From: a bacterium
Lineage (GTDB): Bacteria; Planctomycetota; J058; JAJDCP01
Reading direction: 5' to 3'
Assembly (NCBI GenBank): GCA_030428695.1
Contig: JAUIEM010000050.1
Coordinates: 1 to 33,546, forward strand
Length of the DNA: 33,546 nucleotides
The position numbers were made by a program, and so were the translations under genes. The notes under the pieces were generated by a model. It saw only the letters and a program-made list of their open reading frames with translations. It ran no database searches and had not been told where the DNA came from. This document shows positions 10,795 through 25,699 of this stretch, piece after piece (within the stretch, counting starts at the first letter, position 1; every line of letters begins with the position of its first letter).

Positions 10795-11409
10795 ATCGCT
10801 ACCCTGACGCTTCCGTCCGCGCAGGAACCCCTGCCGGCGATCTACACGATCGAGATCGACGCGACCCGTTCCGTACCTGCCGCCGACTTCCGCGCGGCCT
10901 GCCGGGCGGCTTCCGACTTCGCCGACCTGCTGCATGCCCGCACCATCGCCCGGCCCGGACGCGCCGCGGACTGGTTGGGGGTGCGCCTGTTCGGAGGCCC
11001 CGGCGACGTGCGCGGGACAGGCCACATCAACGCCTGCGACCGCGCCTCGTTGCGGGGGTTGCGGGCCTGGCTGCACGGTCTCGAGCATCCGCGCTACGAG
11101 GCGACCGCGATCTATGACGCGATGTTCTCCGGGGCGCGTGAGGCGTTGGAGCTCGCGTGCCGTCTACCGAGCCTGTACCTCAACAACCTGCTGGTCGTCA
11201 CCGACGGCGAGAACAACAGCTCGACCTCGGACGCCCTGGTCGATGAGGTGCGGCGTTTCTTCCCCGCCCAGACCCTCAATCTGTTCGTGGTCGGGGTCGG
11301 TGAGGCTCATGTCGACTCCCTGGCTGACTGCGCCGACCACGTCGTGTCGCTGGCCGAGCTCGACGCGCTGCATGCCGCCCTGGTAGGGATCAGCGATCGA
11401 CAGGACTGA
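10795..11409 (+). CDS. Stand-alone VWA (von Willebrand factor A) domain protein, probable AUC start
   Basis: The protein has 204 residues. The VWA fold is seen from end to end: first strand and MIDAS-type DATRS (IYTIEIDATRSV, about D22, T24, S26), the ATAIYDAMFSGARE helix, the LLVVTDGENNSS strand carrying the MIDAS Asp, and LFVVGVGEAHVDSLADCADHVV. No ATG, GTG or TTG lies between the in-frame stop at 10765 and residue 61. A TTG at 10975 would delete the first strand and metal motif. The ATG at 10788 is out of frame and touches the SD. ATC at 10795 sits 7 nt after GGAGG, the same geometry as the co-regulated sigma gene, so I place the start there. It overlaps the convergent kinase gene by 20 bp. 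VWA domains act as metal-dependent protein-binding modules; the partner is probably in this cluster. Confidence 0.7.
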   Translation: MATLTLPSAQEPLPAIYTIEIDATRSVPAADFRAACRAASDFADLLHARTIARPGRAADWLGVRLFGGPGDVRGTGHINACDRASLRGLRAWLHGLEHPRYEATAIYDAMFSGAREALELACRLPSLYLNNLLVVTDGENNSSTSDALVDEVRRFFPAQTLNLFVVGVGEAHVDSLADCADHVVSLAELDALHAALVGISDRQD

Positions 11410-13279
11410 GCGCGCCCGCGCACGGTAGCGCCGCGAAACGGTCGAGGAAGCGTCCGAGCGTGGGGCGCAGGGCAGGGTCGGACCGCGACGCCTCGAGCAG
11501 GAGGTTGGTCGCGGCGTCGTACCAGTCCTCGTCGACGTCTTCGATCCAGCCTCCCTCCTCGGCGGGCTCGAGCACGTCCGCGCGCACCTCGCATCCCCCC
11601 TGGAAGCGCATCGGCTGGTCCCCCGGCGCGATCAACCAGGCGACGACGTAGGCGAAGGACACCAGATCGGCGGCGCTGGTCGTCTCGTCGGCGGGAGGCG
11701 CGAAGACCGGATCGCGGAAGCGGGTGTTGTTGCCCTGCTCCAACGTGCAGCCGAAGTCGGTCAGGGCAGCGCTGAACCCCTGGCGGCCGCGCGAGACCAG
11801 GATGTTCTGGGGCTTGACGTCGCAGTGCACCAGGTTGAGGGCGTGCAGGTAGCCGAGCCCCTCACCGATCGCTCGCACCAGGCTCTGGAGCTGGTCGTGG
11901 GGGAGGGTCTCCCGCTTCTGCCGCCAGTCGCGCAGGCTGCCCTCGGGCCGGAAGGCCGAGACGAGCAGGCTCAGGTCGCAGCCGCGCCAGCGCACCTCGA
12001 CGATGCGCTCGGCGACCGCGAGGAAGCGTCCGCGCGGGTCGAACTTCTCGTGGAGCCGATGCTGCAGCTTCCGGACGACATCGATCTCGCGCTGGTTGCG
12101 CTCCATCGCCTCGGTGGTGCTCTCGAGCCCGAAGACCTTGAGCGCGACCTGGCGGGTCCCGACCTCGGCGCGGAAGATCGGCGCTTGCTGCCCGCCTTCC
12201 CGCAGGGGCTGCGGGTTCCGGAATTCCGGCAGGGGCCAGTCGGCGAGCAGGCTCTTGCTCGCGAAGCTGCCGCTGCCTGCGAGGGGCTTCCAGCGGCGCA
12301 CGTCGAGCGCCTGCTTCGCGATGCGCAGCACCTGCTCTTCCGTCAGGAGCGTCCCGCTCCGGGGTGAGGCGACCAGCGAGCCGTCGAAGGGCTCGCCCCG
12401 GAACCAGGGGTCGTCGCCTGGCCCGTCGCCGGCGAGGCTGTCCTCGGCTTGCTGCAGGAGGTCGGCGAGGAAGCCGAGGGGCTGGCGACGTTCGCGGGCG
12501 GTGCAGAAGACCCAGCTGCCGGTGTCGAACAGCACCGCCAGGAAGCCGTAGTCGGACGGCGAGCCGCACTGCGGGTCCTGGTCGGCCCACTGCTTGAACA
12601 GGCTCGAGCGCGGGTGGCGCAGGAACAGACCGGCGACGGGCGAGGGTCGATCGGGGAAGGACACCCGCCAGCGCTCGCCGTCAGCGACGTCCTCGAAGTA
12701 GCGCTTCCGGTCCGACTGGAGGAAAGCGCGCTCGGCGTGGAAGACCTCCTCGTCGTACACGTAGAGCCCGGGGTCGACGTCGTCGCGCGCCGCCTGGAGG
12801 ATCGCCGCCTCGATCTTGCGCCAGCTCTCGAGGAAGCGCGCCGCGCGGTCTGTCGCGGACAACGTGTTGAGGTGGCGGTCCCAGACCTTGCGGCTCTCGA
12901 GGAAGAGCCCCTCGAGGGACTGCTCGACCGGCACCCGGGTGACGGGCAGGCCGTTCCGCATGCGCGCAGCGTACCGCGCGAAGCGGGCGAGGCCGGGCAG
13001 CGGAGGGTCGTCGCGCAGCCAGCGGGCGACGACGGTGGTCGCGAGCATGTCGTCGAAGTTCGGGCCGCTCGCGCCGGGATCGAGGACGAAGTGGCGCATC
13101 GGAGCGGGCCCGAGTCGGACCGCGGCGGCGGGGTCGGACAGCACGTCGAGGGTGCGTTGACGGGCACGCGCCGACAGCAGCCCGTGGGGGCGGAAGACGA
13201 TCTCGCCCGGCCCGGGACGCGCATCGCGCTCGAGCTTGCGAAACAACACGCCAAAAGTGCCGCGTACCGGGGCTTCCAC
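11390..13279 (-). CDS. Ser/Thr protein kinase with novel ~300-residue N-terminal region
   Basis: The protein has 629 residues. The C-terminal kinase (about 365-615) looks active: VALKVF (K381), HCDVKPQN (D487, N492) and DFG (508-510). Its glycine loop is poor and the activation segment is short. Residues 1-320 match no family I can name with confidence. They include a conserved-looking patch FVLDPGASGPNFDDMLATTV (about 64-83) with an acidic pair, a long helical part (about 110-200), and a compact segment LFKQWADQDP followed by YGFLAVLFDTGSWVF (about 227-258). There are no membrane helices. The start is GTG at 13279 with a weak GGGA upstream; an ATG two bases upstream is out of frame. It converges on the VWA gene and diverges from the sigma gene. 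I infer that it is part of a VWA/kinase/sigma signalling unit. Confidence 0.82.
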   Translation of the reverse strand: MEAPVRGTFGVLFRKLERDARPGPGEIVFRPHGLLSARARQRTLDVLSDPAAAVRLGPAPMRHFVLDPGASGPNFDDMLATTVVARWLRDDPPLPGLARFARYAARMRNGLPVTRVPVEQSLEGLFLESRKVWDRHLNTLSATDRAARFLESWRKIEAAILQAARDDVDPGLYVYDEEVFHAERAFLQSDRKRYFEDVADGERWRVSFPDRPSPVAGLFLRHPRSSLFKQWADQDPQCGSPSDYGFLAVLFDTGSWVFCTARERRQPLGFLADLLQQAEDSLAGDGPGDDPWFRGEPFDGSLVASPRSGTLLTEEQVLRIAKQALDVRRWKPLAGSGSFASKSLLADWPLPEFRNPQPLREGGQQAPIFRAEVGTRQVALKVFGLESTTEAMERNQREIDVVRKLQHRLHEKFDPRGRFLAVAERIVEVRWRGCDLSLLVSAFRPEGSLRDWRQKRETLPHDQLQSLVRAIGEGLGYLHALNLVHCDVKPQNILVSRGRQGFSAALTDFGCTLEQGNNTRFRDPVFAPPADETTSAADLVSFAYVVAWLIAPGDQPMRFQGGCEVRADVLEPAEEGGWIEDVDEDWYDAATNLLLEASRSDPALRPTLGRFLDRFAALPCAGALSPVDR

Positions 13280-13308
13280 ATCGTTTTCCCGCAGGAGCTA
13301 CGGCGGCT

Positions 13309-13316
13309 AGTGTAGC
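13309..13316 (-). promoter_or_regulatory. Extended -10 element for the kinase gene
   Basis: On the minus strand this reads GCTACACT, about 30 bp before the GTG start at 13279. The same octamer precedes the genes starting at 24867 and 26993, so it is probably a housekeeping -10 box. No clear -35 was seen. Confidence 0.45.
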
Positions 13317-13333
13317 ACATGGGGAGGGGGTGG

Positions 13334-13364
13334 TTTGCCGCCTTTGCATCGCGCCGCGTAAGGG
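13334..13364 (+). promoter_or_regulatory. Probable ECF-type promoter of the sigma gene
   Basis: TTTGCCGCCTTT (13334-13345), a 12-nt spacer, then GTAAGGG (13358-13364). It differs from the copy at 10728-10758 at only one base across the two boxes. It lies 36 nt before the ATG at 13401. Its place in front of a sigma factor gene suggests autoregulation. Confidence 0.6.
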
Positions 13365-13400
13365 ACGTTTATGCGCGGGACGACACAGGGGAGTTGTGAA

Positions 13401-14228
13401 ATGAGAATGCAAGTGTATCCGGGCGCTGGATTCTGGCCGGAGACGACCGAACCCTTGCTCCGCACGACCGAGGTTGGGGCGCCTTCGAAGTGGATCGCCT
13501 ACCAGCGCCCGACCCGCGCCCTCCTCCGCCAGTACCGGGTGCCCGAGGCGGACATCGAAGATCTGACCGTGCTCGCGCTCGAGCGCCTGTGCCGCCGGGT
13601 CAAGCAGTACGACCCCCAGCGCGGCAGCTTCCGCTCCTACTACCAGGCGATCGTCTACCACCTGTTCGCCGACTACTACCAGCAGCGCCAGCGCGAGCGC
13701 AACCTGCGCCGCCAGCTGAGCCGCCAGAGCCGCGAGCCGGAGCCGCCCGTGGACCTGCCCGCCGAGGAGGGCTTCGAGCTCGGGGGCGAGGTCGGTCTCG
13801 AGCTGCTGGTCGAGCGCGGCCGGGCCCTGTTCGACGAGTTCATCGCCTCGCAGCCGCCGCGCAGGCAGGAGCGTCGTGACGCCGAGACCCTCTGGCACTG
13901 GGTGGTCGAAGGCCGCACCCAGCCGCAGCTGAGCGCGCGCCTCAAACGCTCGACGCGGACCGTGCGGTACCGGCTGCAGAAGGGTATCGACGGCTTCGCC
14001 GCGTGGGCGCGCGAGCGCTTCCACCCCGACGACTTCGCCGTGCTCGAGCGGGCCTCCCGGCTCCTCGACGAGTCGGGCGGGGCGAAGGAGACCCCCGACG
14101 TGCGGCAGCTGTTCCGCTACCTCAGCGAGGAGAAGCGCCGCGTGATCCTCGCCGTGCTCGGCCGGCTGAGCGCAAGGGCGGACGACGAGCCGGAGGTGCG
14201 CTGCCGGCCGCCCGCGCAGGGCTCGTAG
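13401..14228 (+). CDS. ECF-like RNA polymerase sigma factor
   Basis: The protein has 275 residues. A sigma-2-like helical region is seen at about 50-110 (EADIEDLTVLALERLCRRVK, then FADYYQQRQRERNLRR). A sigma-4-like helix-turn-helix is seen at about 160-205 (TLWHWVVEGRTQPQLSARLK, then RTVRYRLQKGI). A C-terminal extension of about 60 residues is longer than in ordinary ECF factors. The start at 13401 was preferred over the in-frame ATG at 13371 because AGGGGAG lies 7 nt upstream, and 13371 would sit at the predicted transcription start. The promoter copy shared with the VWA gene suggests this factor recognises that sequence and controls its own gene. No anti-sigma gene adjoins it; regulation by the divergent kinase is a plausible alternative. 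Confidence 0.8.
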   Translation: MRMQVYPGAGFWPETTEPLLRTTEVGAPSKWIAYQRPTRALLRQYRVPEADIEDLTVLALERLCRRVKQYDPQRGSFRSYYQAIVYHLFADYYQQRQRERNLRRQLSRQSREPEPPVDLPAEEGFELGGEVGLELLVERGRALFDEFIASQPPRRQERRDAETLWHWVVEGRTQPQLSARLKRSTRTVRYRLQKGIDGFAAWARERFHPDDFAVLERASRLLDESGGAKETPDVRQLFRYLSEEKRRVILAVLGRLSARADDEPEVRCRPPAQGS

Positions 14229-14324
14229 GGTCCCAGACTCTCCTCCCTCCCTGTCCGTGATGACGCGCGGGGCACCCGGCTCGCGGGGCCCGGCGGAATC
14301 CGCACGTGACGGCTCCCGGTATGG

Positions 14325-14330
14325 TAGACT
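14325..14330 (+). promoter_or_regulatory. -10-like element before the aminotransferase operon
   Basis: TAGACT lies 34 bp before the ATG at 14364, in the only sizeable gap (135 bp) upstream of the four-gene run. The -35 is unclear. Confidence 0.35.
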
Positions 14331-14363
14331 GGGGTGCCGGAGCCCGCTTCATGGAGGGACACG

Positions 14364-15278
14364 ATGTCGATACGCTGCGATGTGATCTGGATGAACGGGG
14401 AGCTCGTTCCGTACGACGAGGCGCAGGTCCACGTTCTCAGCCACACCCTGCACTACGGCCTCGGTTCCTTCGAAGGCGTCCGCAGCTATCGCCAGACCGA
14501 CACCGGCCAGGGCGGCGTCTTCAAGCTCGACGAGCACCTCGAGCGGCTGTTCGACTCCGCGCGCATGTGTCGCATCGAGGTGCCGTTCAGTCAGGAGCAG
14601 GTGCGCGAGGCGGTGCTCGCTACGCTGCAGGCGAACAAGCTCAAGGAAGCCTACATCCGCCCGATCGTCTTCCTCGGGCACGGGGCGATGGGGCTCGGGG
14701 CGCGGACCAACACGGTGCACGTCGCCGTCGCGACCTGGCCGTGGGGCGCCTACCTCGGGGACGAAGGGCTGCGCAACGGGATCCGCGTCGCGACCAGCTC
14801 CTACACCCGCCACCACATCAACGCCAACCTGCAGCGCGCCAAGATCATCGGCCACTACGTCAACTCGATCCTCGCCCGCTACGAGGCGAACGACAACGGC
14901 TTCGACGAGGCGATCATGCTCGACGGCAGCGGCTACGTCGCCGAGGGCACGGGCGAGAACCTGTTCGTCATCCGCCACGGCGTGATCAAGACGCCGCCGG
15001 TGGTCAACATCCTCGCCGGCATCACGCGCCGCACGGCGATCGAGATCCTCGAGCACGAAGGCTACACCGTCCGGGAGATGCTGTTCGGCCGCGACGCCCT
15101 GTACGTCGCCGACGAGATCTTCATGACCGGCACCGCCGCCGAGATCACGCCGGTCCGCGAGGTCGACCGGCTCGAGGTCGGGAAGCCGGGAGCGATCACC
15201 CAGAAGGTCCAGAAGATCTACCTCGCCGGGGTGCGCGGGGAGATCGAGTGGATGCGGAAGCACATCACGACCTACTGA
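14364..15278 (+). CDS. ilvE: Branched-chain amino acid aminotransferase
   Basis: The protein has 304 residues, the usual length for this PLP class IV family. The cofactor lysine is in LQRAKIIGHYVNS (K160), matching the position in E. coli IlvE. Other family marks are YGLGSFEGVRSY (about 31-42), YIRPIVFLG, and EGTGENLFVIRHG, which contacts the cofactor. The enzyme reversibly transfers the amino group between Leu/Ile/Val and 2-oxoglutarate in the cytosol. GGAGGG lies upstream of the ATG at 14364; the upstream in-frame start at 14334 lacks this. The macro-CHAT gene starts 8 bp after its stop, so the two are probably co-transcribed. No ilv or leu genes are nearby, so the link to a signalling operon is odd. 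A D-amino-acid or aminodeoxychorismate role cannot be fully excluded. Confidence 0.88.
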   Translation: MSIRCDVIWMNGELVPYDEAQVHVLSHTLHYGLGSFEGVRSYRQTDTGQGGVFKLDEHLERLFDSARMCRIEVPFSQEQVREAVLATLQANKLKEAYIRPIVFLGHGAMGLGARTNTVHVAVATWPWGAYLGDEGLRNGIRVATSSYTRHHINANLQRAKIIGHYVNSILARYEANDNGFDEAIMLDGSGYVAEGTGENLFVIRHGVIKTPPVVNILAGITRRTAIEILEHEGYTVREMLFGRDALYVADEIFMTGTAAEITPVREVDRLEVGKPGAITQKVQKIYLAGVRGEIEWMRKHITTY

Positions 15279-15286
15279 GGGCCCGG

Positions 15287-16822
15287 ATGACCCTCCTGCA
15301 CCACTGCCAGCTCGGCACCAAGACCCTCCAGGTCCACTACGGCGACCTGCTCGCGAGCCGGGCCTGCGCGATCGTCTGCTCGGAGAACACCGCGATGCGC
15401 ATGGACGCCGTCGGCGGCCCGAGCGTGTCGGCGGCGATCCGCCGCGAGGAGGGCGAAGCGCTCGTCGGCGAGCTCGCCCGGCGCGGGCCGGTCGCCTTCG
15501 GCACGGTGCTCAGCCAGGAGGCGCGGAAGCTGCCCGCGCGCTTCATCTTCTTCGCCGCGACGGTCGCCCGCAGCCGCGACGGCGACTTCCCCTACACGAC
15601 CTCGGCCGCCGCGATCCGCCGCGCGACCCGCGAGGCGGTGCGGCTGGGGAACAACCTCGGCCTCAGCCGGCTCGCCTTCGGGGCCTTCGGCGTGCGCGGC
15701 GCGGGCTTCCCGGCCGAGACCGCCGCCGCCCTGCAGCTCGAGTCGGTGGTCGCGGCCCTGCGCGAGCCGGGGACGGTGCACCACGTCGACTTCGTGCTCA
15801 ACGACATGCAGGTCTTCCTGCACTACTTCCGCTCGGCGATCGTCAACACCCTGAGCGAGGACGCGCGCCGCGCGCAGCTCGGCATCGAGCGCCGCGACGG
15901 CACGCTGCTCCTGCGGCTGGTCCGGGACGAGCCGTTGAGCCGGGTCTGGGAGCAGCCCCTCGACGAGCGCACCCGCGCCGGCCTCGATGGCGACTTCGCG
16001 GCGCGCGCGACCCGCCTGCGCAGCCGGGTCGAGCTCGAGCGGCTCGGCCGCGCCCTCGCGGCCTGCCTGCCCGAGGGGCTGCGGACGCGGCTCCTGCAGC
16101 TCGAGCCCTCGGTGCTGACCCTGCGCGTGGTCGCGGGCCTGCACACCGTGCCCTGGGAGCTGCTCGCCCTCGACGGGGAGCTGCTGTTCGAGCGCCACCA
16201 GGTCGGCCGCCATCTGCTGGTCCCCGACGGCGAGGCTCCGCCGGAGCGTGGACACGAGCCCTCGCTGCTGGTGATCGCCGACCCGAGCGACGACCTGCCC
16301 GGCACGCGGCGGGAGGCCGAGCGGCTGCTCGCGGCGCTGCCGGAGCGGGGTCCGCGGCTGCGCCTGCTCGCCGGCCGCCGGGCGACGCGGCGGGCGGTGG
16401 CCGAGGCCCTGGAGAGCGCGACCCTGGTCCACTTCGCCGGCCACGCCGACGGCGCGGGCTGGCGCCTGGCGGACGGGCCCTTCCTGCCCGGGCCCGGCGG
16501 CAGCGGGGCGCGTCTGGTCGTCGCCAACTGCTGCCACGGCGCCCAGCTCGGCCAGGCCTTCCTGCGCGGCGGGGCGCGGCACTACATCGGCAGCTGGCGG
16601 GCGCTGCCCGACACCGCGGGCACCGCCTTCGCCGGGGCGCTGTACCGCGCGGTGCTCCAGGGGGAGCGGCTGGGGAACGCCCTGGTGCGGGCCCGCGCGG
16701 CCCTCGAGAGCCACGACCCCGACGGCGTGCTCGGCGGCGCCTACGTCCACTACGGCAGCCCCCTGGGGAAACTTCCCGGCTGGGGGATGCAAGATCGCGA
16801 AGGGAGCGCTCTTCTCCGATGA
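15287..16822 (+). CDS. Macro domain-CHAT (caspase-like) peptidase fusion
   Basis: The protein has 511 residues. Residues about 14-160 read as a macro domain: VHYGDLLASRACAIVCSENT (about 16-35), AVGGPSVSAAIRREEG (41-56), and the phosphate-loop-like AFGAFGVRGAGFPAET (130-145). Macro domains bind ADP-ribose and related nucleotides. Residues about 250-495 form a CHAT peptidase: TVPWELLALDG, then SLLVIADPSDDLPGTRREAE, the histidine strand VHFAGHADG (H386), and the cysteine strand LVVANCCHGA (C416, or C415), followed by a GSWRALPDTAGTAFAGALY helix. The catalytic His/Cys dyad looks intact. No TPR or membrane segment is present. The ATG at 15287 follows the aminotransferase stop by 8 bp; the 3' end overlaps the sigma gene by 4 nt (ATGA). 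I infer a ligand-controlled protease acting on a neighbour product. Confidence 0.82.
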   Translation: MTLLHHCQLGTKTLQVHYGDLLASRACAIVCSENTAMRMDAVGGPSVSAAIRREEGEALVGELARRGPVAFGTVLSQEARKLPARFIFFAATVARSRDGDFPYTTSAAAIRRATREAVRLGNNLGLSRLAFGAFGVRGAGFPAETAAALQLESVVAALREPGTVHHVDFVLNDMQVFLHYFRSAIVNTLSEDARRAQLGIERRDGTLLLRLVRDEPLSRVWEQPLDERTRAGLDGDFAARATRLRSRVELERLGRALAACLPEGLRTRLLQLEPSVLTLRVVAGLHTVPWELLALDGELLFERHQVGRHLLVPDGEAPPERGHEPSLLVIADPSDDLPGTRREAERLLAALPERGPRLRLLAGRRATRRAVAEALESATLVHFAGHADGAGWRLADGPFLPGPGGSGARLVVANCCHGAQLGQAFLRGGARHYIGSWRALPDTAGTAFAGALYRAVLQGERLGNALVRARAALESHDPDGVLGGAYVHYGSPLGKLPGWGMQDREGSALLR

Positions 16823-17439
16823 CGACGGCCCTGGAGACGCTGCTGCAGCGCGCGCGCGCCGGCGAGGAGCCGGCCCGCGGCGAGCTGTACGAGCGCTACG
16901 TCGCGGCCGTGCGCGCCCGCGTCCGGCACGGCAAGCGGCGGCGCAACTGGTTCTGGCTCGAGGAGGAGGAGGACGTCGTGCAGGAAGTGTTCGCGCGCTT
17001 CTTCTCCGCCCTCGATGAGGGGAAGTACGCCCATCGCGACGAGGACGGGCTGCTCGGCTTCCTCACCCGGACCGGCTTCTTCGTGATCATGGAGCTGAAG
17101 GGGAAGCTGCGCGCCAAAGAGAAGCTCGGCGTCTCCCCCGAGCGCATCGCCGCCCTCGACCTGCGCGAGGTCGGCCGCACCCTGCCGATGCAGCTCGCCG
17201 AGCGCGACTGCCTGGCCCGGCTGTACGCGGCGATCGAGGACCTGCCGGCCGCGCGGGCCGAGGTGCTCAAGGGCTGGCTGTACGGCAGCTCCGTCGCCGA
17301 CCTCGCGACCCGCATGGGCCGCAGCGCCAACGCGGTCAGCGGGCTGAAGTTCCAGGGACTCAAGCAGTTGCGTTCACGGCTCACAGACTCGGGGTTCCTC
17401 GAGGAGTGCGGGGAGGTCTTCGGATTGCGCCATGGCTGA
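16819..17439 (+). CDS. ECF RNA polymerase sigma factor
   Basis: The protein has 206 residues, normal ECF length. Region 2 is clear (EEEEDVVQEVFARFFSALDE, about 49-68, then FLTRTGFFVIMELKGKLRAK). Region 4 is at about 145-195 (LYAAIEDLPAARAEVLKGWL, then SVADLATRMGRSANAVSGLK), with the helix-turn-helix intact. Its ATG overlaps the stop of the macro-CHAT gene by 4 nt, and its own stop overlaps the next ATG by 8 nt. The three are therefore almost certainly translationally coupled. The downstream gene encodes a zinc-finger protein like a ZAS anti-sigma factor, which fits the usual sigma/anti-sigma pairing. Target promoters are unknown; neither copy of the TTTGCC-N-GTAAGGG motif lies upstream of this operon. 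Confidence 0.85.
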   Translation: MTTALETLLQRARAGEEPARGELYERYVAAVRARVRHGKRRRNWFWLEEEEDVVQEVFARFFSALDEGKYAHRDEDGLLGFLTRTGFFVIMELKGKLRAKEKLGVSPERIAALDLREVGRTLPMQLAERDCLARLYAAIEDLPAARAEVLKGWLYGSSVADLATRMGRSANAVSGLKFQGLKQLRSRLTDSGFLEECGEVFGLRHG

Positions 17440-18019
17440 GCTCGACGATGTGCTCGAGGCGTGGAGGCCGATCTCCCGCCGCACCTGCCCGCCCCCGGAC
17501 GTCCTCTGGCAGCTGATCGAGGGCACCGCCCCCGACCGGGTCGGCGCGCACGTCGTGGCCTGCCCGCTGTGCGCGGACGACGTCGCCGACGGCCGCGCCC
17601 TCGCCGAGCAGACCGTGTGGGAGGTCGTGCTCTCCTGGACCCGCGAGGGTCTGCGCGCGCTGTCCTCCCTGTGCGAGGTGCGTCCCCTGGCCGGGGAGGC
17701 CCTGCGCGGCCCCGGCGAGGGGCTCGAGCTGCGGGCGAGCGGCGGCGGGCTGCGCTGCCGGCTCGAGCTCGAGCCGCGGGGCAGGGAGCTGCTCGACCTG
17801 CGCTGCACCGTGACCCGCGGGGCGGAGCCCGTCGCCCACCGCCTCGAGCTGGTCGAGGACGGCAAGCTGCTCGAGCTGCGCTCCTCGGTCGCCGGGGTCA
17901 GCGTGCTCGAGGCGCTGACGGCGCTCGACCGCGAGATCTGGGTGCGGGCGGAGGAGCACAGCTTCGCCTTCGACCTGCGCGGGGAAACTTCCGAAGGCGG
18001 GCTTTCCTCCGACGTGTGA
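17432..18019 (+). CDS. Soluble zinc-finger protein, probable anti-sigma factor (ZAS-like)
   Basis: The protein has 195 residues. The N-terminus holds Cys19 in RTCPPPDVLWQLIEG and then AHVVACPLC (His40, Cys44, Cys47). This is the Hx3Cx2C signature of zinc-binding anti-sigma domains, and Cys19 completes a four-ligand set. A helical stretch (about 58-80) could clamp the sigma factor. The rest (about 90-190) is predicted beta-rich (LELRASGGGLRCRLELEP, ELLDLRCTVTRG, WVRAEEHSFAFDLRG) with no named family. There is no membrane helix, so regulated intramembrane proteolysis is not available to release the sigma factor. The gene overlaps the sigma gene by 8 nt and is last in the run. The context with a CHAT peptidase suggests it could be the protease substrate; that is inference. 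Confidence 0.68.
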   Translation: MAELDDVLEAWRPISRRTCPPPDVLWQLIEGTAPDRVGAHVVACPLCADDVADGRALAEQTVWEVVLSWTREGLRALSSLCEVRPLAGEALRGPGEGLELRASGGGLRCRLELEPRGRELLDLRCTVTRGAEPVAHRLELVEDGKLLELRSSVAGVSVLEALTALDREIWVRAEEHSFAFDLRGETSEGGLSSDV

Positions 18020-18026
18020 CGCTGTC

Positions 18027-18032
18027 TACAAT
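18027..18032 (+). promoter_or_regulatory. -10 element before the CFA-synthase-like gene
   Basis: TACAAT, one base from consensus, lies 29 bp before the ATG at 18062 in the 42-bp gap after the zinc-finger gene. This suggests the lipid gene has its own promoter. The -35 is weak. Confidence 0.45.
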
Positions 18033-18061
18033 CGCGTGTGCGCCCCGCCCCCGGAGATCCG

Positions 18062-19318
18062 ATGCCCGCCGACACCAGCACCCGTCCCCGCTCCGTGCGA
18101 TCCCGCCGGCTCGAGAGCTTCCTGACCGACATCCTGCGCGCGCTGCCCTGGCGCATCGTGTTCACCGACTGGGAGGGCGCGACCTACGCCTGCGGCGGGG
18201 ACCGCGCCCACTGGTGTGGGGAGGATCTGCGCGTCAGCCTGCACACCGAGGCGGCCGGGCGCGACCTGATGCGGGTCGACGGCCTCGCCTTCCTCGACCG
18301 CTTCCTGCTCGGTGAGGCCGACCTCGAGGGCAACCTGTACATCCTCGCGAACATCCGCAAGCACACGAAGATGGGGCTGAAGTTCCTCCGCTTCCTGCCC
18401 ACCTTGCTCAAGAACTTCGCCTTCCAGAGCACGCGCTCGGCGAAGGTCAACGTCAAGAGCCACTACGACGTCCCCCAGGAGGCGCTCAACGCCTACCTCG
18501 ACACGAAGTACATGTCCTACTCCTGCGGCATCTGGGAGCGTCCGGATGACTTCCGCCCCGACGACTTCCTGACGGTCGGCAAGGGCGAGGAGGACACCTT
18601 CGACTCGCTCGAGAAGTCGCAGTGGCGAAAGTTCAAGGATGCCGCCGACTTCATCGCGCCGAAGGAAGGGGAAGAGCTGCTCGACGTCGGCTGCGGCTAC
18701 GGCGGCCAGCTCGCCGTCGCCCTCGAGAGCCACCCCTTCGGCAAGGTCGTCGGCTGGACCCACTCGGCCAACCAGGTGCGGGAGGGAAGGAAGCTGCTCG
18801 CCCACCTCGACGCCTCGCGCTACGAGCTGCACGAGGGGGACTACCGCGAGGACGAGCGGGTCTTCGACCACATCACCTCGACCGGCATGATCAGCCACGT
18901 CGGGCCGCGGGGCCTGGTGCCGTACGTGCGCAACGTGCGCAAGCGCATCAAGACCGGCGGCCGCTACCTGCACCACAGCCTGATGACCCACTACAACCCG
19001 CTGCCGCTGAACTTCAACGTCGGGGTGGTGTTCAACAAGAAGTACGTGTGGCCGGGCTTCCACTGGTTCACCCTCGGCGAGCATGTGCGCGCCCTCGAGC
19101 GCAACGGCTTCCAGATCGTGCGGGTGCGCAGCCTGACCAGACACTACGCGAAGACGACCGCGGCCTGGTACGCCCGCATGATGGACCAGCGGGAGCACAT
19201 GGTGCAGACTCTCGGCGAGGCGACCTTCCGCGCCTGGCGGATCTTCCTCGCCGGCATCACGGGCAGCTACCAGAACAAGCAGACCCACGTGTACCGGTTG
19301 TACTGCGAGGCGGTCTGA
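18062..19318 (+). CDS. Cyclopropane-fatty-acyl-phospholipid synthase family SAM methyltransferase
   Basis: The protein has 418 residues, close to other Cfa-type enzymes. An N-terminal lipid-domain-like part (1-125) is followed by the hallmark SHYDVPQEALNAYLDTKYMS (about 133-152), which binds the lipid and leads into the catalytic core, and SAM motif LLDVGCGYG (206-214). Further marks are HITSTGMISHVGP and the C-terminal TRHYAKTTAAWYARM with its conserved Tyr. Family members add a methylene or methyl group from SAM to the double bond of membrane phospholipid acyl chains, on the cytoplasmic membrane face. GGAG lies 6 nt before the ATG at 18062. The next gene starts inside its stop codon (TGATG), so they form a pair. 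Whether the product is a cyclopropane or a methyl-branched acid cannot be read. Confidence 0.87.
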   Translation: MPADTSTRPRSVRSRRLESFLTDILRALPWRIVFTDWEGATYACGGDRAHWCGEDLRVSLHTEAAGRDLMRVDGLAFLDRFLLGEADLEGNLYILANIRKHTKMGLKFLRFLPTLLKNFAFQSTRSAKVNVKSHYDVPQEALNAYLDTKYMSYSCGIWERPDDFRPDDFLTVGKGEEDTFDSLEKSQWRKFKDAADFIAPKEGEELLDVGCGYGGQLAVALESHPFGKVVGWTHSANQVREGRKLLAHLDASRYELHEGDYREDERVFDHITSTGMISHVGPRGLVPYVRNVRKRIKTGGRYLHHSLMTHYNPLPLNFNVGVVFNKKYVWPGFHWFTLGEHVRALERNGFQIVRVRSLTRHYAKTTAAWYARMMDQREHMVQTLGEATFRAWRIFLAGITGSYQNKQTHVYRLYCEAV

Positions 19319-20184
19319 TGGCCCGGGAGCCCGTGCTGGTCCACACGATGGGCAAGGTCGGCTCCTCGAGCATCACCGCGATGCTCGCCTCCAGCCAGCG
19401 CTTCGAGCCGATCCAGATCCACATGCTGCGGGCGGACAAGATCGAGGCCCTCGAGGCCAAGCACCGGGCGCGCGGGCTCGAGGTTCCGCAACACCTGCGC
19501 GACGCCCGGCGGGTGCTCGACGAGATCCTGCCGGGGACCGGGCGGGTGCGGATCGTCAGCCTGGTGCGCGACCCGGTCGCCCGCAACCTGTCGGCCTACT
19601 TCCAGAACCTCGACATCTGGAAGCTCGGCTGGCAGCCGGGCGCGGACGTCACACCCTACATCGCGAGCTTCTTCACCGAGTACCCGCACCACGTCCCGCT
19701 CGTCTGGTTCGACCGCCAGCTGAAGGCGACCCTCGGGCTCGACGTGTTCTCGGTGCCGTTCGACTTCCACCGCGAGCGGCTGATCCTCCGCACCGACCGC
19801 TACGAGCTGATCGTCCTGCGCTGCGAGCTGCCCGACCCGCGCAAGAAGGAGCTGCTCGAGGAGTTCCTCGGCGAGACGGGGCTGCCGCTGGGGCGCGCGA
19901 ACGAGGCCCACAAGAAGAGCTACGCGGCGGCCTACAAGGAGGTGCTCGCCGCGATCGAGCTGCCGACGGACTACCTCGACCGGCAGTACGACAGCCCCTG
20001 CGCCCGGCACTTCTACACCGAGGTGGAGCGCGCCAGCTTCCGGCGCCGCTGGCGTCGCCGCCGGCCGCGCCCGGCCCGCGAGGGGCTGTGGCTGCCCGAC
20101 CTCGAGCTGCTGCAGCGGCGCCTGCGCGCGCGCTCCCGGGCCTGGCTGCAGCGCTTGTGGCGGCGCTTCCCGGGGCGGGGTTGA
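19318..20184 (+). CDS. Sulfotransferase-like protein (putative capsular polysaccharide synthesis family)
   Basis: The protein has 288 residues. VLVHTMGKVGSSSITAML (about 6-23) fits the 5'-phosphosulfate loop of PAPS-dependent sulfotransferases, with Gly-Lys-Val-Gly-Ser-Ser in the usual place. RIVSLVRDPVARNLSAYFQN (about 77-96) fits the 3'-phosphate motif with Arg and Ser. Related bacterial proteins are commonly labelled putative capsular polysaccharide synthesis protein. The C-terminus (about 240-288) is very Arg-rich and may bind a membrane or polyanion. The ATG at 19318 shares one base with the stop of the CFA-like gene, so co-expression is very likely. I infer modification of a lipid or cell-surface glycan. 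It ends at a hairpin and faces the giant kinase gene. Confidence 0.7.
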   Translation: MAREPVLVHTMGKVGSSSITAMLASSQRFEPIQIHMLRADKIEALEAKHRARGLEVPQHLRDARRVLDEILPGTGRVRIVSLVRDPVARNLSAYFQNLDIWKLGWQPGADVTPYIASFFTEYPHHVPLVWFDRQLKATLGLDVFSVPFDFHRERLILRTDRYELIVLRCELPDPRKKELLEEFLGETGLPLGRANEAHKKSYAAAYKEVLAAIELPTDYLDRQYDSPCARHFYTEVERASFRRRWRRRRPRPAREGLWLPDLELLQRRLRARSRAWLQRLWRRFPGRG

Positions 20185-20211: not shown

Positions 20212-23200
20212 TCACTCGTCCCGCGCCCGGGCCTCTTCCGCCAGGGCCCGGCAGGATGCCGCCCGCCTCTCGTCCCCCCTCCGCGCGAAGATCTCCACGG
20301 CCTCGTCGGCGGCCAGGGCGGCCGCGCGCGGGTCTCCCTGACGCAGGCGGGTCTCGGAGAGGCCCGCCAGCACCAGCGCCAGGTCGCTCTCGAGGGCGGG
20401 CAGGGGTCCCCAGCGCGCGACGGCCGCGCGCGCCGCGGCCAGGGCCTGCGTGTGCCAGGCGTCGGCGAGCGCGGTCTCGTCGACCGCCTGGGCGGCCAGG
20501 GCGACCGCCTGGGCGAGCTGGGTGCCGCGCCGGGAGACGTCGGGGCTGGCGAGGAAGCCCGCGGCGAGCGCCTCGCCCGCCTCGAAGCCCCGCCGCCCCG
20601 CCTCGATCGCCTCGCGGTGGCGGCCGGCGGCCCGCAGGCGGTGGACGAAGACGCTCGCGAAGAGCTGGAAGTCGTGGAAGTCGAACGGGCGTGTCGGGCC
20701 CTCCTCGGTCAGGGCGACGCCGTCGCGGTAGGCTTCCGCCGCGACCTCGAGCGCGGCGTTGGTCGAGCCGAGGCGGTCGAGGGCCTCCCAGGCCAGCGTC
20801 CGGTTCTCGATGCGGCGGCGCAGCGCGTCGGGGCCGAGGCCGATGTGGCGGTCGCGGATGACGCCGGCCTCGCGCGCCCGGTCGAGGGCGCGGGCGAAGT
20901 CGCCGTCGGCCGCGTCGCACCAGCCGAGCTCCTCGAGCGCCGAGGCGCGGAGCGAGGCGACCTGCACGCTCGGGCCCTCGAGCGCGTCGAGCGTCGCGAG
21001 GGCGCGCGCGAGCAGGGCGCGAGCGTCGGCCGGCGCGGCGCGCGAGGCGGCGATCAGGATCTCCGCCCGGGAGACCACGGCATCGCGGTGGTCGGCGCCG
21101 TCGAGCAGCGCGAGCGCGCGCCCCAGGGCGTCGCCGGGAGCCTCGCCTGCCAGCTCGGCGAGCGCGGCCTCGACCCGCAGGGCATCGGCGTGCAGCAGGC
21201 GCAGGTTCTGGTCCTCGGCGTGGACGCTGCGGAGCTCCGTCAGCTCTGCGAGGCAAGCGGAGATCGTCGCGCGCGCCTCCTGCGGCCGGTGCAGCGTCAG
21301 CAGCTGCGCCTTCCGGATCAGCGCCACGAGGCGGGCGAGGCGCGCGAACAGGGCGTGGGCGTGGACGGGATCGGCCCAGGTCTCGTCGATCCAGGCGAGG
21401 GCCTCGCGCTCGCGTCCGAGCTCGGGCGCCAGGCGGGTGCAGATGTTGAGCGCGACGGTCTCGAGCTCGAAGAGCAGGACATCCTCCGGATCGGCGGCGC
21501 GCTCCTGGCGGACCGACCGGAGCAGCGCCACCGCACCCTCGAAGAAGGTGTCGACCGCCCCCGGGGACACGGCCTCGTCAAGGGCGTCGAAGAACAGGCC
21601 GAAGCGGGCGAAGGTCTCGACGATGCGATCGACCGGCGCGTCCCCGTCGAGCTCGTCGACGAGGCCCTCGAGCTCGGCTCTGCAGCGGCGGACGGTCTCG
21701 CGGTCTCCACAGCCGCGCGACAGGCTCGACAGCCGGTAGAGGAGCTCCGCCAGGCGGCGACGGTAGGGCGCGAAGTGGGGATCGCGGGCGCGCAGCACGC
21801 GGCAGTGGGCGAGCGCCTCGCGCACGTGCGTGCGGGCCTCGGAGAGCAGCCCCGCGCGCGCCTCGACGGTGCTGAGCAGCCACAGGGCCTCGATCGCGAT
21901 CTCCCGCCGCATCGTGCTGGTGTCGCGCTCGCCGAGCCAGGCCTCGACCTCGCGGTTCGCCTCGAGCGCGAGCCCGCGCGCTTCCGCCAGGGTCCCGAGG
22001 CGCGCGACCGCGTCGGCGAGCTCCAGGGCGTGCTGCAGGCGCAGGTAGCGGTGCGCCCCCGCGCGGGCGAGGGTCGCGCAGAGCTCCTCGCGGCGCTCGA
22101 TGCTCGCGGGCAGATCGCCGAGCGCGTCGAGGGCGTGGGCGAGGCTCTCGAGAAAGTGGAGGCGCCGGCCCACATGCCACGCGCTGTCCGCGTCGCCCAG
22201 GCTCTCCAACCCGCGCTTCGCCAGCGCGGCCGCCTCCTGCCAGCGCTGCTGGCGGACCAGCCAGGTGGCGCGGTGGGCCGCGCACTCGAGGCGCGCAGGG
22301 TGATCCTCGGCGAGCAGGGCGACGAGCTCTTCGGCCCGGGCGAGCTCGCGGGCGGCCTCTTCGGTGTCGGGGTCGAGGCGCAGGGCGAGCCGCGCTACCC
22401 GCGCGTGCAGGAGCGCGCGCTGGGCGGGCTCGAGGCCGTGCTCGATGGCGAGGAGCTCGCGCCAGCTCGCCAGCGTCGCCTCCCGCAGCTCGCGGAGGAC
22501 GTGGTCGTTCCGGGTGCTGCCGAGCTCTTCGACGACCTCCTCGCCGATGCTGTCGGCGATGCGGAAGAAGCCGTCCATCGCCACGTCGGCGTAGCGCTGC
22601 GCCGCCTCGTAGCTGCGCGCGACCCGCCGGGCGTCGCGCTCGCGGAGCACGAAGATCACCACCCAGACGACGAGGAGCGCGAGGCCGGCCACCGCCGCGC
22701 CGATGCGGAGGAGCCTCCGGGCGCGACGGTCCCTCCCCCGCTGGCGCAGCCCCGCGGCGAGCCGCGCGCGCAGCTCCGTCGCCTCGGCGTCCGCGGGCGC
22801 GAGGTCCTCGAGCTCGGTCGCGGCCAGGCCGTAGTCGCCCCGCTCGAGCGCCGCCCGCACCAGCCCGAGGCGGGCGCTGCGCAGGCCCGAGGTCGCCTCC
22901 CGCGACGCGTGCAGGCGGCGCGCCTCGGCGAAGGAGGCGACGACGGCGGAGAAGTCCCGGTACAGCCGCTCGTTCTCTCCCTCCCGGGCCTGCTCCTCGC
23001 AGCGCCGGAGGCGGCGGGCGGCGTCCAGGCACAGCTCGAGGCTCTCGCGGTGGCGGGCGAAGTCGCGCAGCCGCGCCTGGAACGCCTGCGCGCTCTGCGG
23101 CCGCCTCGACGGGTCGACGTCCAGCGCGCTGCGGCACAGCTCGACCAGCGCGGAAGGCGCCTGCAACGGGAACTCCAGCGCCGGGGCCGGCGCCTGCGCG

Positions 23201-24867
23201 ACGAAGGCGTCGAGCCGCGGAGGGCTGTTCGGGGGCCGTCCGGTCAGGATCTCGTGGAGGATGGCGCCGAGCTGGTAGATGTCGGAGCGCGGGCTCAGCG
23301 CCGCCCCGTCCCCGCGGGCCAGCTCCGGGGACATGTACGCCGGCGTGCCGCAGGGCCCCGCGATCCGCGTGCGCGGCCGGATCGTCGCCTGCTCCGCCTG
23401 CTCGACCGCGACCCCCCAGTCACCGAGCAGGACCTCCCCGAAGGCGCCGAGGAGAACGTTCGAGGGCTTGATGTCGTTGTGCAGGACGCCCCGGCTGTGG
23501 GCGAAGCCGACGGCGTTGCACAGCGTGGCGAGGATCTCGAGCTCCTCGTCGCGGGTGTGCGAGCCCGCGGCCAGGCGCTGCGCCCAGGTCGCGCCCTCGA
23601 CGAGCTTCATCGCCATCTGCACCGCGCCCTCGCGCTCGGTCAGGAGGTCGTGGACGGGCAGCACGTTCGGATGCTCGAGGCGCCCGCCGAGCAGCGCCTC
23701 GATCAGGAATTCGGAGCGCCGGGCGGGGGTGTCGCGCTCGAGGACCTTGACGGCGACGGGTCGGTCGAGGCGGGTCTGGATGGCGCGGTAGACGACGCCG
23801 CTGCCGCCCTTGCCCAGAGGCTCGCCGAGGACGAAGGGCAGGACCTCGCCGGGAAGCTCCGGCGGCGCGCCCGTCGCGGGCGGGAGCGTGCGCCCGGTCG
23901 CGCGCACGGTCAGCGGGAGCGGCGCGTCTTCCGCCGTCTCGTCGAGCTCCTCGAGCGTGCGCGCGAAGTCCTCGGCCGTCGGTCGCTCGGCTGGACGCTC
24001 GGCGAGCGCGCGCTGCAGCACCGCGGCGACCCGGGCGGACGGCCCGGGGAGGTCCTCCCACGCCGCGCCGGCCCTCGGCGCGGCACCGGTCAGCGCGAAC
24101 CACAGCGTCGCCGCCAGGCTGTAGAGGTCGGAGCGCGGCGACGTCGCGGTGCGTAGCCCCTGCTCGGGGGCGGCGTAGGCCGGCGTGCCGACGAAGCCGC
24201 AGGTCAGGGTGGTCAGGTCGGCGAGGGTGTCGAGCACGAGGCCGAAGTCGAGCAGCACCGGCGCGCCGTCGGGCCGGATCATCACGTTCGCCGGCTTGAC
24301 GTCGCGGTGGATGTAGCCCTGCTCGTGCATGTACTGCAGGGCCCGCGCGAGCGCGACGCCCCAGCGCGTGACGAGCCGCGCTCCGGGAGGCTCCTGCCGG
24401 ACCCGCGCCTCCAGGGTCTGGCCCGGGACGAGCTCCATCACCAGGTAGACGAAGGCGTCCTCGCGCCCGATCTGGTGCAGGCGGACGAGGCCCGGGTGCG
24501 CGAGGGCCCGCGCCGCCCGCCCCTCCCGGATCAGCCGCTGGCGGCGCTCGGCGGAGGCGCGGACGTCGAAGCGCACCAGCTTCAGGGCCCAGGTCGCCCC
24601 GTCGGCATCGCGCGCCTCGAAGACCTCGCCGAAGCCTCCGCGGCCGAGCGGTCGGACCAGCGCGAAGCCTCCGACGACGTCGGGGTAGGCGGTCGGAACC
24701 GCCACCGTCGTCCGCGGCGCGTGGCCCGTGAGGCGCGTGTGCAGGCGGGTCAGCTCGCGGAGCAGGGCGGGGTCGTCGACACCGTGCCGGCGCAGGTAGC
24801 CCCGTGGGTTGTGGAGCCGTCCCTGGAGGGCCTGGTCGAGGTAGCGGTCGTAGAGCTCGTCGTGCAT
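20212..24867 (-). CDS. Giant tandem Ser/Thr protein kinase with TM segment and TPR-like tail
   Basis: The protein has 1551 residues. Kinase 1 (about 66-310): GRGGFG loop, K96, HRDVKPAN (187-194), DFG (207-209) and a GTPAYAAPE activation end. Kinase 2 (about 343-605): GKGGSG (352-357), VAVK (K374), HNDIKPSN (463-470, Asn for Arg in HRD), DWG (483-485, Trp for Phe) and GTPAYMSPE. Both keep the catalytic Lys and Asp residues, so both may be active. One strong membrane helix (about 721-741, IGAAVAGLALLVVWVVIFVL) separates them from about 800 residues of TPR-like helical repeats, which would be extracytoplasmic if the protein spans once. The ATG at 24867 has GGAAGGG upstream; earlier in-frame starts add low-quality sequence. 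It is divergent from the small gene at 24984. Confidence 0.88.
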   Translation of the reverse strand: MHDELYDRYLDQALQGRLHNPRGYLRRHGVDDPALLRELTRLHTRLTGHAPRTTVAVPTAYPDVVGGFALVRPLGRGGFGEVFEARDADGATWALKLVRFDVRASAERRQRLIREGRAARALAHPGLVRLHQIGREDAFVYLVMELVPGQTLEARVRQEPPGARLVTRWGVALARALQYMHEQGYIHRDVKPANVMIRPDGAPVLLDFGLVLDTLADLTTLTCGFVGTPAYAAPEQGLRTATSPRSDLYSLAATLWFALTGAAPRAGAAWEDLPGPSARVAAVLQRALAERPAERPTAEDFARTLEELDETAEDAPLPLTVRATGRTLPPATGAPPELPGEVLPFVLGEPLGKGGSGVVYRAIQTRLDRPVAVKVLERDTPARRSEFLIEALLGGRLEHPNVLPVHDLLTEREGAVQMAMKLVEGATWAQRLAAGSHTRDEELEILATLCNAVGFAHSRGVLHNDIKPSNVLLGAFGEVLLGDWGVAVEQAEQATIRPRTRIAGPCGTPAYMSPELARGDGAALSPRSDIYQLGAILHEILTGRPPNSPPRLDAFVAQAPAPALEFPLQAPSALVELCRSALDVDPSRRPQSAQAFQARLRDFARHRESLELCLDAARRLRRCEEQAREGENERLYRDFSAVVASFAEARRLHASREATSGLRSARLGLVRAALERGDYGLAATELEDLAPADAEATELRARLAAGLRQRGRDRRARRLLRIGAAVAGLALLVVWVVIFVLRERDARRVARSYEAAQRYADVAMDGFFRIADSIGEEVVEELGSTRNDHVLRELREATLASWRELLAIEHGLEPAQRALLHARVARLALRLDPDTEEAARELARAEELVALLAEDHPARLECAAHRATWLVRQQRWQEAAALAKRGLESLGDADSAWHVGRRLHFLESLAHALDALGDLPASIERREELCATLARAGAHRYLRLQHALELADAVARLGTLAEARGLALEANREVEAWLGERDTSTMRREIAIEALWLLSTVEARAGLLSEARTHVREALAHCRVLRARDPHFAPYRRRLAELLYRLSSLSRGCGDRETVRRCRAELEGLVDELDGDAPVDRIVETFARFGLFFDALDEAVSPGAVDTFFEGAVALLRSVRQERAADPEDVLLFELETVALNICTRLAPELGREREALAWIDETWADPVHAHALFARLARLVALIRKAQLLTLHRPQEARATISACLAELTELRSVHAEDQNLRLLHADALRVEAALAELAGEAPGDALGRALALLDGADHRDAVVSRAEILIAASRAAPADARALLARALATLDALEGPSVQVASLRASALEELGWCDAADGDFARALDRAREAGVIRDRHIGLGPDALRRRIENRTLAWEALDRLGSTNAALEVAAEAYRDGVALTEEGPTRPFDFHDFQLFASVFVHRLRAAGRHREAIEAGRRGFEAGEALAAGFLASPDVSRRGTQLAQAVALAAQAVDETALADAWHTQALAAARAAVARWGPLPALESDLALVLAGLSETRLRQGDPRAAALAADEAVEIFARRGDERRAASCRALAEEARARDE

Positions 24868-24881
24868 GGAAGCACCCTTCC

Positions 24882-24891
24882 GCAGTGTAGC
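24882..24891 (-). promoter_or_regulatory. Extended -10 element for the giant kinase gene
   Basis: On the minus strand this reads GCTACACTGC, about 17 bp before the ATG at 24867, so the leader would be only about 10 nt. The octamer is shared with the promoters at 13309 and 27065. Confidence 0.45.
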
Positions 24892-24983
24892 CGACCGGGC
24901 GCAGTTTTTTTCGCGGAGCCTGTCCCCCTTCCGCCGTGTTCTCGACTGCGTTCGATAGCCGCCAACCCCCCAGGGAGAATCCG

Positions 24984-25517
24984 ATGGCCCGTGCAACCGA
25001 AGCGCAGCGCAAGCAGTTCGCCGAGGCGATGAAGCGCGTCCACCTCGGCCTGTCCATCCTCGGCAACGAGCTCAGCCTGACCAAGCGCCACCCCGACCTC
25101 ACCGGGCTGCTGTTCCTCTCCGGCACGCAGCGCGCGCAGCTCCACCGCCACCTCTTCGGCCTCAAGTGCTACACCAACGATCCCGGTGACCGGCGCAGCC
25201 ATCGCGAGGAGAGGCAGCGCATCCTCGACTTTTTCCAGTCGATCGGTCGGAGCGCGATCGTGCAGGACCCGCGCTCCCCGACGGTGAGCTCGATCACGCC
25301 GGGCGAGGTCCAGAGGGCCGTCGAGTACACGCAGTTCATCCGCTCCCGCGCCGACGACCTCAAGTGGATGGCGGCCAATCCGATCGGGGCGGGAACCTAC
25401 GGCATCGAGCGCAGCCTCCGGGGCAGCGACCACATCCGGGCGATGAAGCGGGCCCGGAACGTGCAGGCCACCTTCGATCTGCTCGACGCGGGCTCGGGGC
25501 TCGTGCCTGCGCGCTAG
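24984..25517 (+). CDS. Hypothetical protein, 177 residues
   Basis: I do not recognise a family. The protein is mostly helical and basic. It starts MARATEAQRKQFAEAMKRVH and includes HPDLTGLLFLSGTQRAQLHR, a poorly charged stretch PRSPTVSSITPGEVQRAVEY, and ends with AMKRARNVQATFDLLDAGSG. There is no signal peptide, membrane helix or cysteine pair. GGGAG lies about 7 nt before the ATG at 24984, which supports the start over an in-frame alternative at 24936. It is divergent from the giant kinase and lies upstream of a sigma factor gene, from which it is separated by a long inverted repeat. Codon use looks like the neighbours, so it is probably a real resident gene. Confidence 0.7.
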   Translation: MARATEAQRKQFAEAMKRVHLGLSILGNELSLTKRHPDLTGLLFLSGTQRAQLHRHLFGLKCYTNDPGDRRSHREERQRILDFFQSIGRSAIVQDPRSPTVSSITPGEVQRAVEYTQFIRSRADDLKWMAANPIGAGTYGIERSLRGSDHIRAMKRARNVQATFDLLDAGSGLVPAR

Positions 25518-25522
25518 AAGCT

Positions 25523-25665
25523 TGGCCCGAAAGCCGCGTGGCGAGGCGCCGCGCGGGTGGGTGGATGCCGAGGATCGACGACGACGCGGCCTTTGTTGAC
25601 CTCGGAGGAGGAGGACGAAGGCAGGCACCCACCCCCGCAAGCCTCGCGAGCGAGGTTTCGGGCCA
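25523..25665. repeat. 143-nt imperfect inverted repeat (long hairpin)
   Basis: Four blocks pair in order. TGGCCCGAAA (25523-25532) pairs with TTTCGGGCCA (25656-25665), GCGAGGC (25541-25547) with GCCTCGC (25641-25647), GGGTGGGTG (25555-25563) with CACCCACCC (25626-25634), and CCGAGG (25568-25573) with CCTCGG (25600-25605). Thirty-two perfect pairs are visible, apart from the loops. It starts 5 nt after the stop of the hypothetical gene and ends 6 nt before the TAGAAT box. It could be a terminator, a structured RNA or a small non-autonomous element; the sequence alone does not decide. Confidence 0.65.
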
Positions 25666-25671
25666 CGCTGC

Positions 25672-25677
25672 TAGAAT
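25672..25677 (+). promoter_or_regulatory. -10 element before the third sigma gene
   Basis: TAGAAT lies 22 bp before the proposed TTG start at 25700, just after the long inverted repeat. It supports the short form of the gene, because the in-frame ATG at 25565 lies upstream of it. Confidence 0.4.
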
Positions 25678-25699
25678 CAGGAAGGGCGGAGGGGAGACG

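Follow-up and report, generated by a model that had tools for sequence, protein, structure and literature searches.

Organisation of the macro-CHAT, sigma factor and zinc anti-sigma genes

We analysed a 33,546-nucleotide stretch of the genome of an uncultured planctomycete (contig JAUIEM010000050.1 of assembly GCA_030428695.1, hereafter the window), in which three consecutive forward-strand genes at positions 15287-18019 encode a protein joining a macro domain to a CHAT protease domain (macro-CHAT), a divergent sigma factor of the extracytoplasmic function (ECF) type, and a zinc anti-sigma protein (ZAS) with a predicted CHCC zinc site. The macro-CHAT and sigma genes share the four nucleotides ATGA, and the sigma and ZAS genes overlap by 8 nt, in agreement with a preliminary description of this DNA made from the sequence alone. 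The genes and their features are:

15287-16822, forward strand: macro-CHAT gene (P0001), macro and CHAT domains with a His386/Cys416 dyad
15287-15862, forward strand: macro domain, residues 1-192 (Pfam PF01661 match, macro fold)
15863-16819, forward strand: CHAT (separase/caspase-like) protease domain, residues 193-511 (PF12770)
16442-16444, forward strand: codon of the predicted catalytic His386, which aligns to the His motif in 8tl0 and in separase
16532-16534, forward strand: codon of the predicted catalytic Cys416, aligned with a Cys of 8tl0
16819-17439, forward strand: gene of the divergent ECF-type sigma factor (P0002), overlapping the macro-CHAT gene by 4 nt
17432-18019, forward strand: CHCC-type ZAS gene (P0003), overlapping the sigma gene by 8 nt
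17486-17572, forward strand: predicted zinc site Cys19-x20-His40-x3-Cys44-x2-Cys47, from motif comparison with relatives

The macro-CHAT protein belongs to a rare family

The CHAT part of P0001 matched PF12770 with 66.7 bits against a cut-off of 24, and both residues of the predicted dyad recur in 10 of 11 homologues, the eleventh being truncated; a macro fold and conserved pocket residues were found as well, and the macro-CHAT protein with an intact His/Cys dyad given in the preliminary description is borne out. The best sequence match of the CHAT part in the PDB was SAVED-CHAT (8tl0, E 2.4e-9). Macrodomain-type matches stood at the top in a library of viral protein folds, and none of the 66 pattern matches in viral contigs encoded a relative. 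Csx29 was absent from the best 50 matches of the structure search, which carries no weight either way as to a shared fold.

A protein search that scored the best 7,991 candidates by word sharing yielded 11 proteins at E 1e-3 or better, eight of which (P0001 included) contain both domains, with P0004 as the nearest macro-CHAT protein at 60% identity. Macro-CHAT is a real, rare family. Two related CHAT proteins carry other domains: P0011 combines CHAT with PF03783, which we take to be CsgG, and P0013 with PF02789, presumably the M17 N-terminal domain and itself macro-like.

Within the macro domain, Asp20 and Asn34 are kept in all ten homologues that reach them and an SVS loop in 11 of 11, a conserved pocket from which we infer a putative site for an ADP-ribose-type ligand. 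In the sequence alignment, Ser48 (11/11) occupies the place of the catalytic Asp of MacroD, which we assume to lie in the GGGVDGAI-type loop. Because P0001 has Ser in place of this catalytic Asp of MacroD-type ADP-ribosyl hydrolases, its macro domain more likely serves as a reader than as a hydrolase.

A divergent ECF-type sigma factor paired with a CHCC-type ZAS

Standard models recognise the sigma factor poorly: its TIGR02937 match (E 1e-8, 35.0 bits) lies below the cut-off of 42.9, and Pfam sigma regions 2 and 4 were matched weakly, under cut-off. At the same time, a profile of ten family members matched the solved ECF sigma factors 6dxo, 4cxf, 6jbq and 1or7 (E 1.7e-6 for 6dxo to 0.0015). 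With regions 2 and 4 as its sole sigma regions, and with this likeness, the product of 16819-17439 is by sequence a divergent ECF-type sigma, and the identity first given to it stands even with the curated model under its cut-off.

We surveyed 392 planctomycete genomes, and a search with the sigma gave hits in 27 at E 1e-6 or better. Eight genomes stand out with 6e-28 or better, the next value being 7e-12. Orthologues are 37-67% identical to the window sigma; the 67% one, P0014, lies on a 1,739-bp contig too short to show its neighbours. The inter-domain linker of P0002, P0014 and P0015 is unlike the one common to six of seven other relatives, the sigma of locus L071 departing too; a differing linker would fit a changed input to the sigma.

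Although P0003 itself had no family match over cut-off, a profile built from the partner proteins of six relatives picked it out among the window open reading frames (ORFs) with E 1.2e-16. The motif C-x17-24-H-x3-C-x2-C occurs in 7/7 orthologues, the fourth zinc ligand being Cys in each, and the homologue in L074 passes Pfam zf-HC2. A ZAS is defined by an HxxxCxxC motif encoded downstream of an ECF sigma gene, with Cys or His as fourth ligand, 23-26 residues ahead of that motif (PMC4960319; this paper and those below are cited from partial texts, to which our statements about them are limited). By this definition the predicted product of 17432-18019 is a CHCC-type ZAS, in keeping with the Cys...Hx3Cx2C site originally recognised, its Cys-to-His spacing of 20 residues being short, as is that of L068 (17), with 23-24 in the other five. 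P0003 has 195 residues (relatives 211-265), its zinc site near the N-terminus being followed by more than 100 further residues. Its highest 19-residue hydropathy mean is 1.16, and five relatives reach 0.94-1.35; at 1.72, slightly over the customary membrane-stretch threshold of 1.6, the sixth (L069) is not called free of a membrane stretch.

The sigma/ZAS pair is genuine, with orthologous pairs in six related planctomycete genomes. A partner gene was found at six of the eight sigma loci (L068-L072 and L074; L073 and L075 reach a contig end), with an overlap of 4 or 8 nt in L068, L070, L071, L072 and L074 and of 4 nt in L069. These eight loci (for example L070:5079-9235) represent a recurring arrangement of a divergent GAF-SpoIIE phosphatase gene, the ECF-like sigma gene, the CHCC ZAS gene and an FHA gene. 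The phosphatase gene lies beside the sigma gene in six of the eight (Pfam checked in three), and the FHA gene follows the ZAS gene in all six whose contig continues (Pfam checked in four), which may make this locus a phospho-linked ECF module.

A proposed protease-released sigma switch and its precedents

The preliminary description had read the three genes as a switch in which a protease frees the sigma factor, by likeness to proteases that cut anti-sigma factors, and such precedents do exist. CalpL is a nucleotide-sensing protease that cuts the anti-sigma factor CalpT bound to the ECF sigma CalpS (PMC11417357), while the TPR-CHAT protein Csx29 cleaves Csx30, a binder of CASP-sigma, and the cleavage has been proposed to relieve this ECF sigma (PMC10028731, PMC9729208). 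In both systems part of the cleaved inhibitor remains attached to the sigma, and additional proteolysis has been suggested (PMC11417357, PMC10028731, PMC9729208).

With CalpL/CalpT/CalpS the window would share the fusion of a nucleotide sensor to a protease whose target is the anti-sigma factor on an ECF sigma (the cutting being proposed here); the fusion is of CHAT and macro rather than Lon and SAVED, the partner is a CHCC ZAS, and no CRISPR (clustered regularly interspaced short palindromic repeats) context was seen, a repeat scan of the window giving only two two-copy repeats and no CRISPR array. Craspase, the CASP system, likewise has a CHAT protease with a fold resembling separase, next to an ECF sigma and the inhibitor of that sigma, but senses through RNA-guided Cas7-11 and TPR where the window has a macro domain. 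Pfam found no TPR in P0001 and no Cas family among 22 window ORFs scanned. PDB chains called 'CHAT domain protein', presumably Csx29-type, gave only sequence matches at E 1.5-2.1.

In SAVED-CHAT (8tl0, linked to type III CRISPR and named in PMC11417357) a signal-sensing domain is also fused to a CHAT protease; here a macro domain replaces SAVED, so P0001 is not a SAVED fusion, and the PADLOC SAVED_CHAT model matches one of the 11 macro-CHAT homologues (3.4e-5) and not P0001 itself. EACC2-caspase proteins carry variable C-terminal domains, macro among them, and most of their neighbourhoods without a TRADD-N gene also encode an ECF sigma (PMC8195603), so that caspase-domain proteins with macro domains, many beside ECF genes, are in print. 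In those systems the variable domain is C-terminal and TPR genes of the DUF1822 type are present, whereas the window combines an N-terminal macro domain with CHAT and a ZAS gene; in Pfam, P0001 matched CHAT and not a caspase family, no EACC2 model search having been made. RsrA-SigR and ChrR-RpoE (PMC4960319, PMC6852236) resemble the second and third genes in that a soluble zinc anti-sigma accompanies an ECF sigma, its zinc site being CHCC in RsrA as here. ChrR exceeds the zinc domain in length, as P0003 does, and is turned over by proteolysis; the C-terminal part of P0003 is not shown as a cupin, and the portions of these papers that we cite mention no adjoining protease gene for RsrA or ChrR pairs (PMC4960319, PMC6852236).

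In line with the preliminary description, we came across no paper describing the exact set, but SAVED-CHAT, CalpL/T/S, Craspase and the EACC2-caspases, as far as the partial texts go, come close, and its ingredients are already known. In a literature search whose scope left out most subscription papers, no paper combined CHAT terms with 'macro domain' (other spellings, such as 'macrodomain', lay outside the search), and combining CHAT with ECF or anti-sigma terms led to PMC10028731 only, or to none.

We tentatively propose a sensor-protease/anti-sigma/ECF-sigma switch with the macro domain as sensor, working like CalpL/T/S or Craspase, a reading that we regard as quite possible, if somewhat short of probable; beyond domain identity, we infer every step of it. 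The ZAS would hold the sigma until the macro pocket is occupied by an ADP-ribose-type ligand, either free or attached to a protein or an RNA end, and the occupied pocket would free the CHAT dyad. CHAT would then cut the ZAS, probably behind the zinc domain, and once the ZAS fragment is cleared the sigma would go to RNA polymerase; clearance would need further proteolysis of the sigma-bound inhibitor fragment, as proposed in the two precedents. The protease gene would have come to lie before the sigma/ZAS pair in the lineage of the window, while the relatives examined keep the units apart. A fuller version, which we consider unlikely, is a CRISPR-free, ADP-ribose-gated switch whose macro domain reads signals derived from nicotinamide adenine dinucleotide (NAD) and whose CHAT domain destroys the CHCC ZAS, the ECF sigma thereby answering both redox cues (through zinc) and ADP-ribose cues (through the protease). 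If the switch is real, the protease/anti-sigma/ECF arrangement of type III CRISPR exists outside CRISPR with a different sensor, NAD/ADP-ribose signalling is tied to bacterial transcription via a separase-like protease, and a macro-CHAT protein gains a substrate open to testing.

Distribution of the unit and competing explanations

In favour of the proposed switch are the dyad, the macro fold and its conserved pocket, the kept sigma/ZAS pairing, the ATGA coupling, the rarity of CHAT genes and a contig that a second lineage seems to share. P0004, the nearest macro-CHAT protein, and P0015, a sigma with 66% identity, are each assigned to a contig whose length is exactly 294,345 bp, which we take to be one and the same contig; two unlinked genes would share it with a chance of ~3 to 4.5% (genomes of 6.6-10.2 Mb). 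The linkage of macro-CHAT and sigma may therefore predate the window, within a side branch that has the differing sigma linker. Since few CHAT genes occur in the class (in 12 genomes, 20 matches with E 1e-8 or better), a random neighbour of the sigma/ZAS pair would seldom be one of them.

Several results weigh against the switch, above all its conservation, the lack of which the preliminary description had itself named as telling against it. With at most three candidates scored per genome, 31/392 genomes gave a match to macro or CHAT with E 1e-30 or better and 6/392 a full-length macro-CHAT, all six among the 10 sampled genomes of one order; the eight strong sigma carriers (8/12 genomes of the class) belong to the same order, and all six macro-CHAT genomes hold the sigma too. 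The arrangement of the window was seen in none of these six genomes holding both parts: the eight sigma loci have no macro-CHAT nearby, and none of 64 loci with macro or CHAT (332 kb, counting duplicates and loci that have macro only) contains this sigma or ZAS. Contig ends cut off one side of macro-CHAT in L002, L003, L039 and L041, and in L071 only ~520 bases upstream of the sigma are visible; for five genomes adjacency of macro-CHAT and the pair is wholly excluded by the other locus, and in G002 (L002 and L071) the window order is excluded, a divergent neighbourhood across the contig break still being possible. Co-occurrence within the order (both parts in 6 genomes, the sigma alone in 2, macro-CHAT alone in 0 and neither in 2) is not significant (one-sided Fisher p ~0.13). 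The 294-kb contig offers linkage without observed adjacency, and the P0003 search gave no relative there; that protein search found P0003 alone, its relatives being reached via the sigma gene. The predicted structure of P0003 alone was unusable, with a predicted local distance difference test score (pLDDT) of 37.9, and the ZAS belongs to the CHCC type, which in RsrA releases the sigma through oxidation alone, a route left unweighed when the switch was put forward. The three-gene unit was thus seen only in the window. The observation is sound and the switch a plausible interpretation in its domains, its sigma/ZAS pair and its analogies, but its own conservation test largely failed, and the link between macro-CHAT and the pair is unproven because the two lie apart in relatives.

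Neighbours of macro-CHAT vary among its loci. In three of six (L001:12158-13408, L003:2314-3564, L040:5534-6619; Pfam checked in L001) a fusion of the RNA 2'-phosphotransferase KptA/Tpt1 with Nudix, whose chemistry uses NAD and nucleotide diphosphates, lies near it and is a possible source or sink of an ADP-ribose-type signal. It supports such a ligand weakly, since L001 and L003 are closely related and have a divergent neighbour gene in common with L040.

In the main competing explanation, the sigma/ZAS pair would be a self-contained RsrA-like redox switch, in which oxidation expels zinc and frees the sigma, with macro-CHAT independent of it and sharing the transcript by chance. This explanation, possible though doubtful, draws on the Cys at the fourth zinc place in all seven orthologues, CHCC being the type that dissociates on oxidation (PMC4960319), and on the separate lives of the two units: macro-CHAT stands without the pair in six genomes, and the eight sigma loci, without macro-CHAT nearby, have SpoIIE beside the sigma (6/8) and FHA after the ZAS (6/6). 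RsrA, however, is a single-domain protein of 105 residues (PMC4960319), against 195 in P0003 and 211-265 in its relatives, and the explanation would make coincidences of both the ATGA coupling and the contig shared in a second lineage. The same SpoIIE and FHA neighbours would suit a ZAS that answers to phospho-signalling, the window ZAS keeping that input from genes elsewhere and the protease being irrelevant; neither gene was found within the window, and we give this very little credence. Macro-CHAT might instead be an output, the sigma/ZAS pair controlling genes that include a protease that acts on different targets (during ADP-ribosylation stress or cell death, for instance). One transcript would carry all three genes, autoregulated ECF operons carrying target genes are common, and the KptA-Nudix neighbour in 3/6 loci points to a job of macro-CHAT's own in ADP-ribose metabolism. 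Yet the hexamer TAGACT, which looks like a housekeeping -10 box, stands just before the macro-CHAT starts in L001 (upstream of L001:9974) and L003 (upstream of L003:110), and no ECF-type promoter was identified before any macro-CHAT gene, which leaves the output explanation improbable.

Transcript and neighbouring genes

The following features flank the three genes:

14325-14330, forward strand: TAGACT, candidate -10 box of the transcript, read by eye before the aminotransferase gene
14364-15278, forward strand: class IV aminotransferase (IlvE-like) gene (Aminotran_4 4.4e-53, scanned from 14334; ATG at 14364)
18062-19318, forward strand: downstream cyclopropane-fatty-acid-synthase-like gene (CMAS 2.8e-45, scanned from 18038)

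The aminotransferase gene ends 8 nt upstream of the macro-CHAT gene and probably heads the transcript carrying macro-CHAT, sigma and ZAS. On the opposite strand, TAGACT also lies upstream of the sigma gene on the SpoIIE side in L070, L073, L074 and L075, and in L001 and L003 its position a few bases ahead of the start codon suggests leaderless transcripts in this planctomycete order. A scan of 13200-19600 with a strict promoter consensus found none, and an ECF promoter common to the sigma and macro-CHAT genes, sought by eye, was not found either, TAGACT being the recurring element. The cyclopropane-synthase-like gene may have its own promoter, given TACAAT at 18027-18032, and is not counted in the unit. 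Scans returned no Rfam family match and no tRNA, and terminator-like sites numbered 2 against 1.5 expected.

A defence island was considered and rejected, since the PADLOC matches of 10 window proteins read as shared domains: three kinases match many kinase-type models and the cyclopropane-synthase-like protein matches part of mad2 (8.7e-15), with no match for P0001, P0002 or P0003.

Elsewhere in the window, 13371-14228 encodes a sigma region 2 protein (PF04542 2.9e-8) with a weak helix-turn-helix match, divergent from a kinase gene at 11390-13279. A protein with two kinase stretches (20212-24996) is divergent from a second ECF-type sigma gene (25364-26248), which we take to be a typical planctomycete kinase/ECF pair. 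On the forward strand, 29220-31925 encodes a single protein with zinc ribbons, a protein kinase and an FGE-sulfatase domain, and it adjoins a kinase/FGE protein of similar make-up on the reverse strand (27115-29157).

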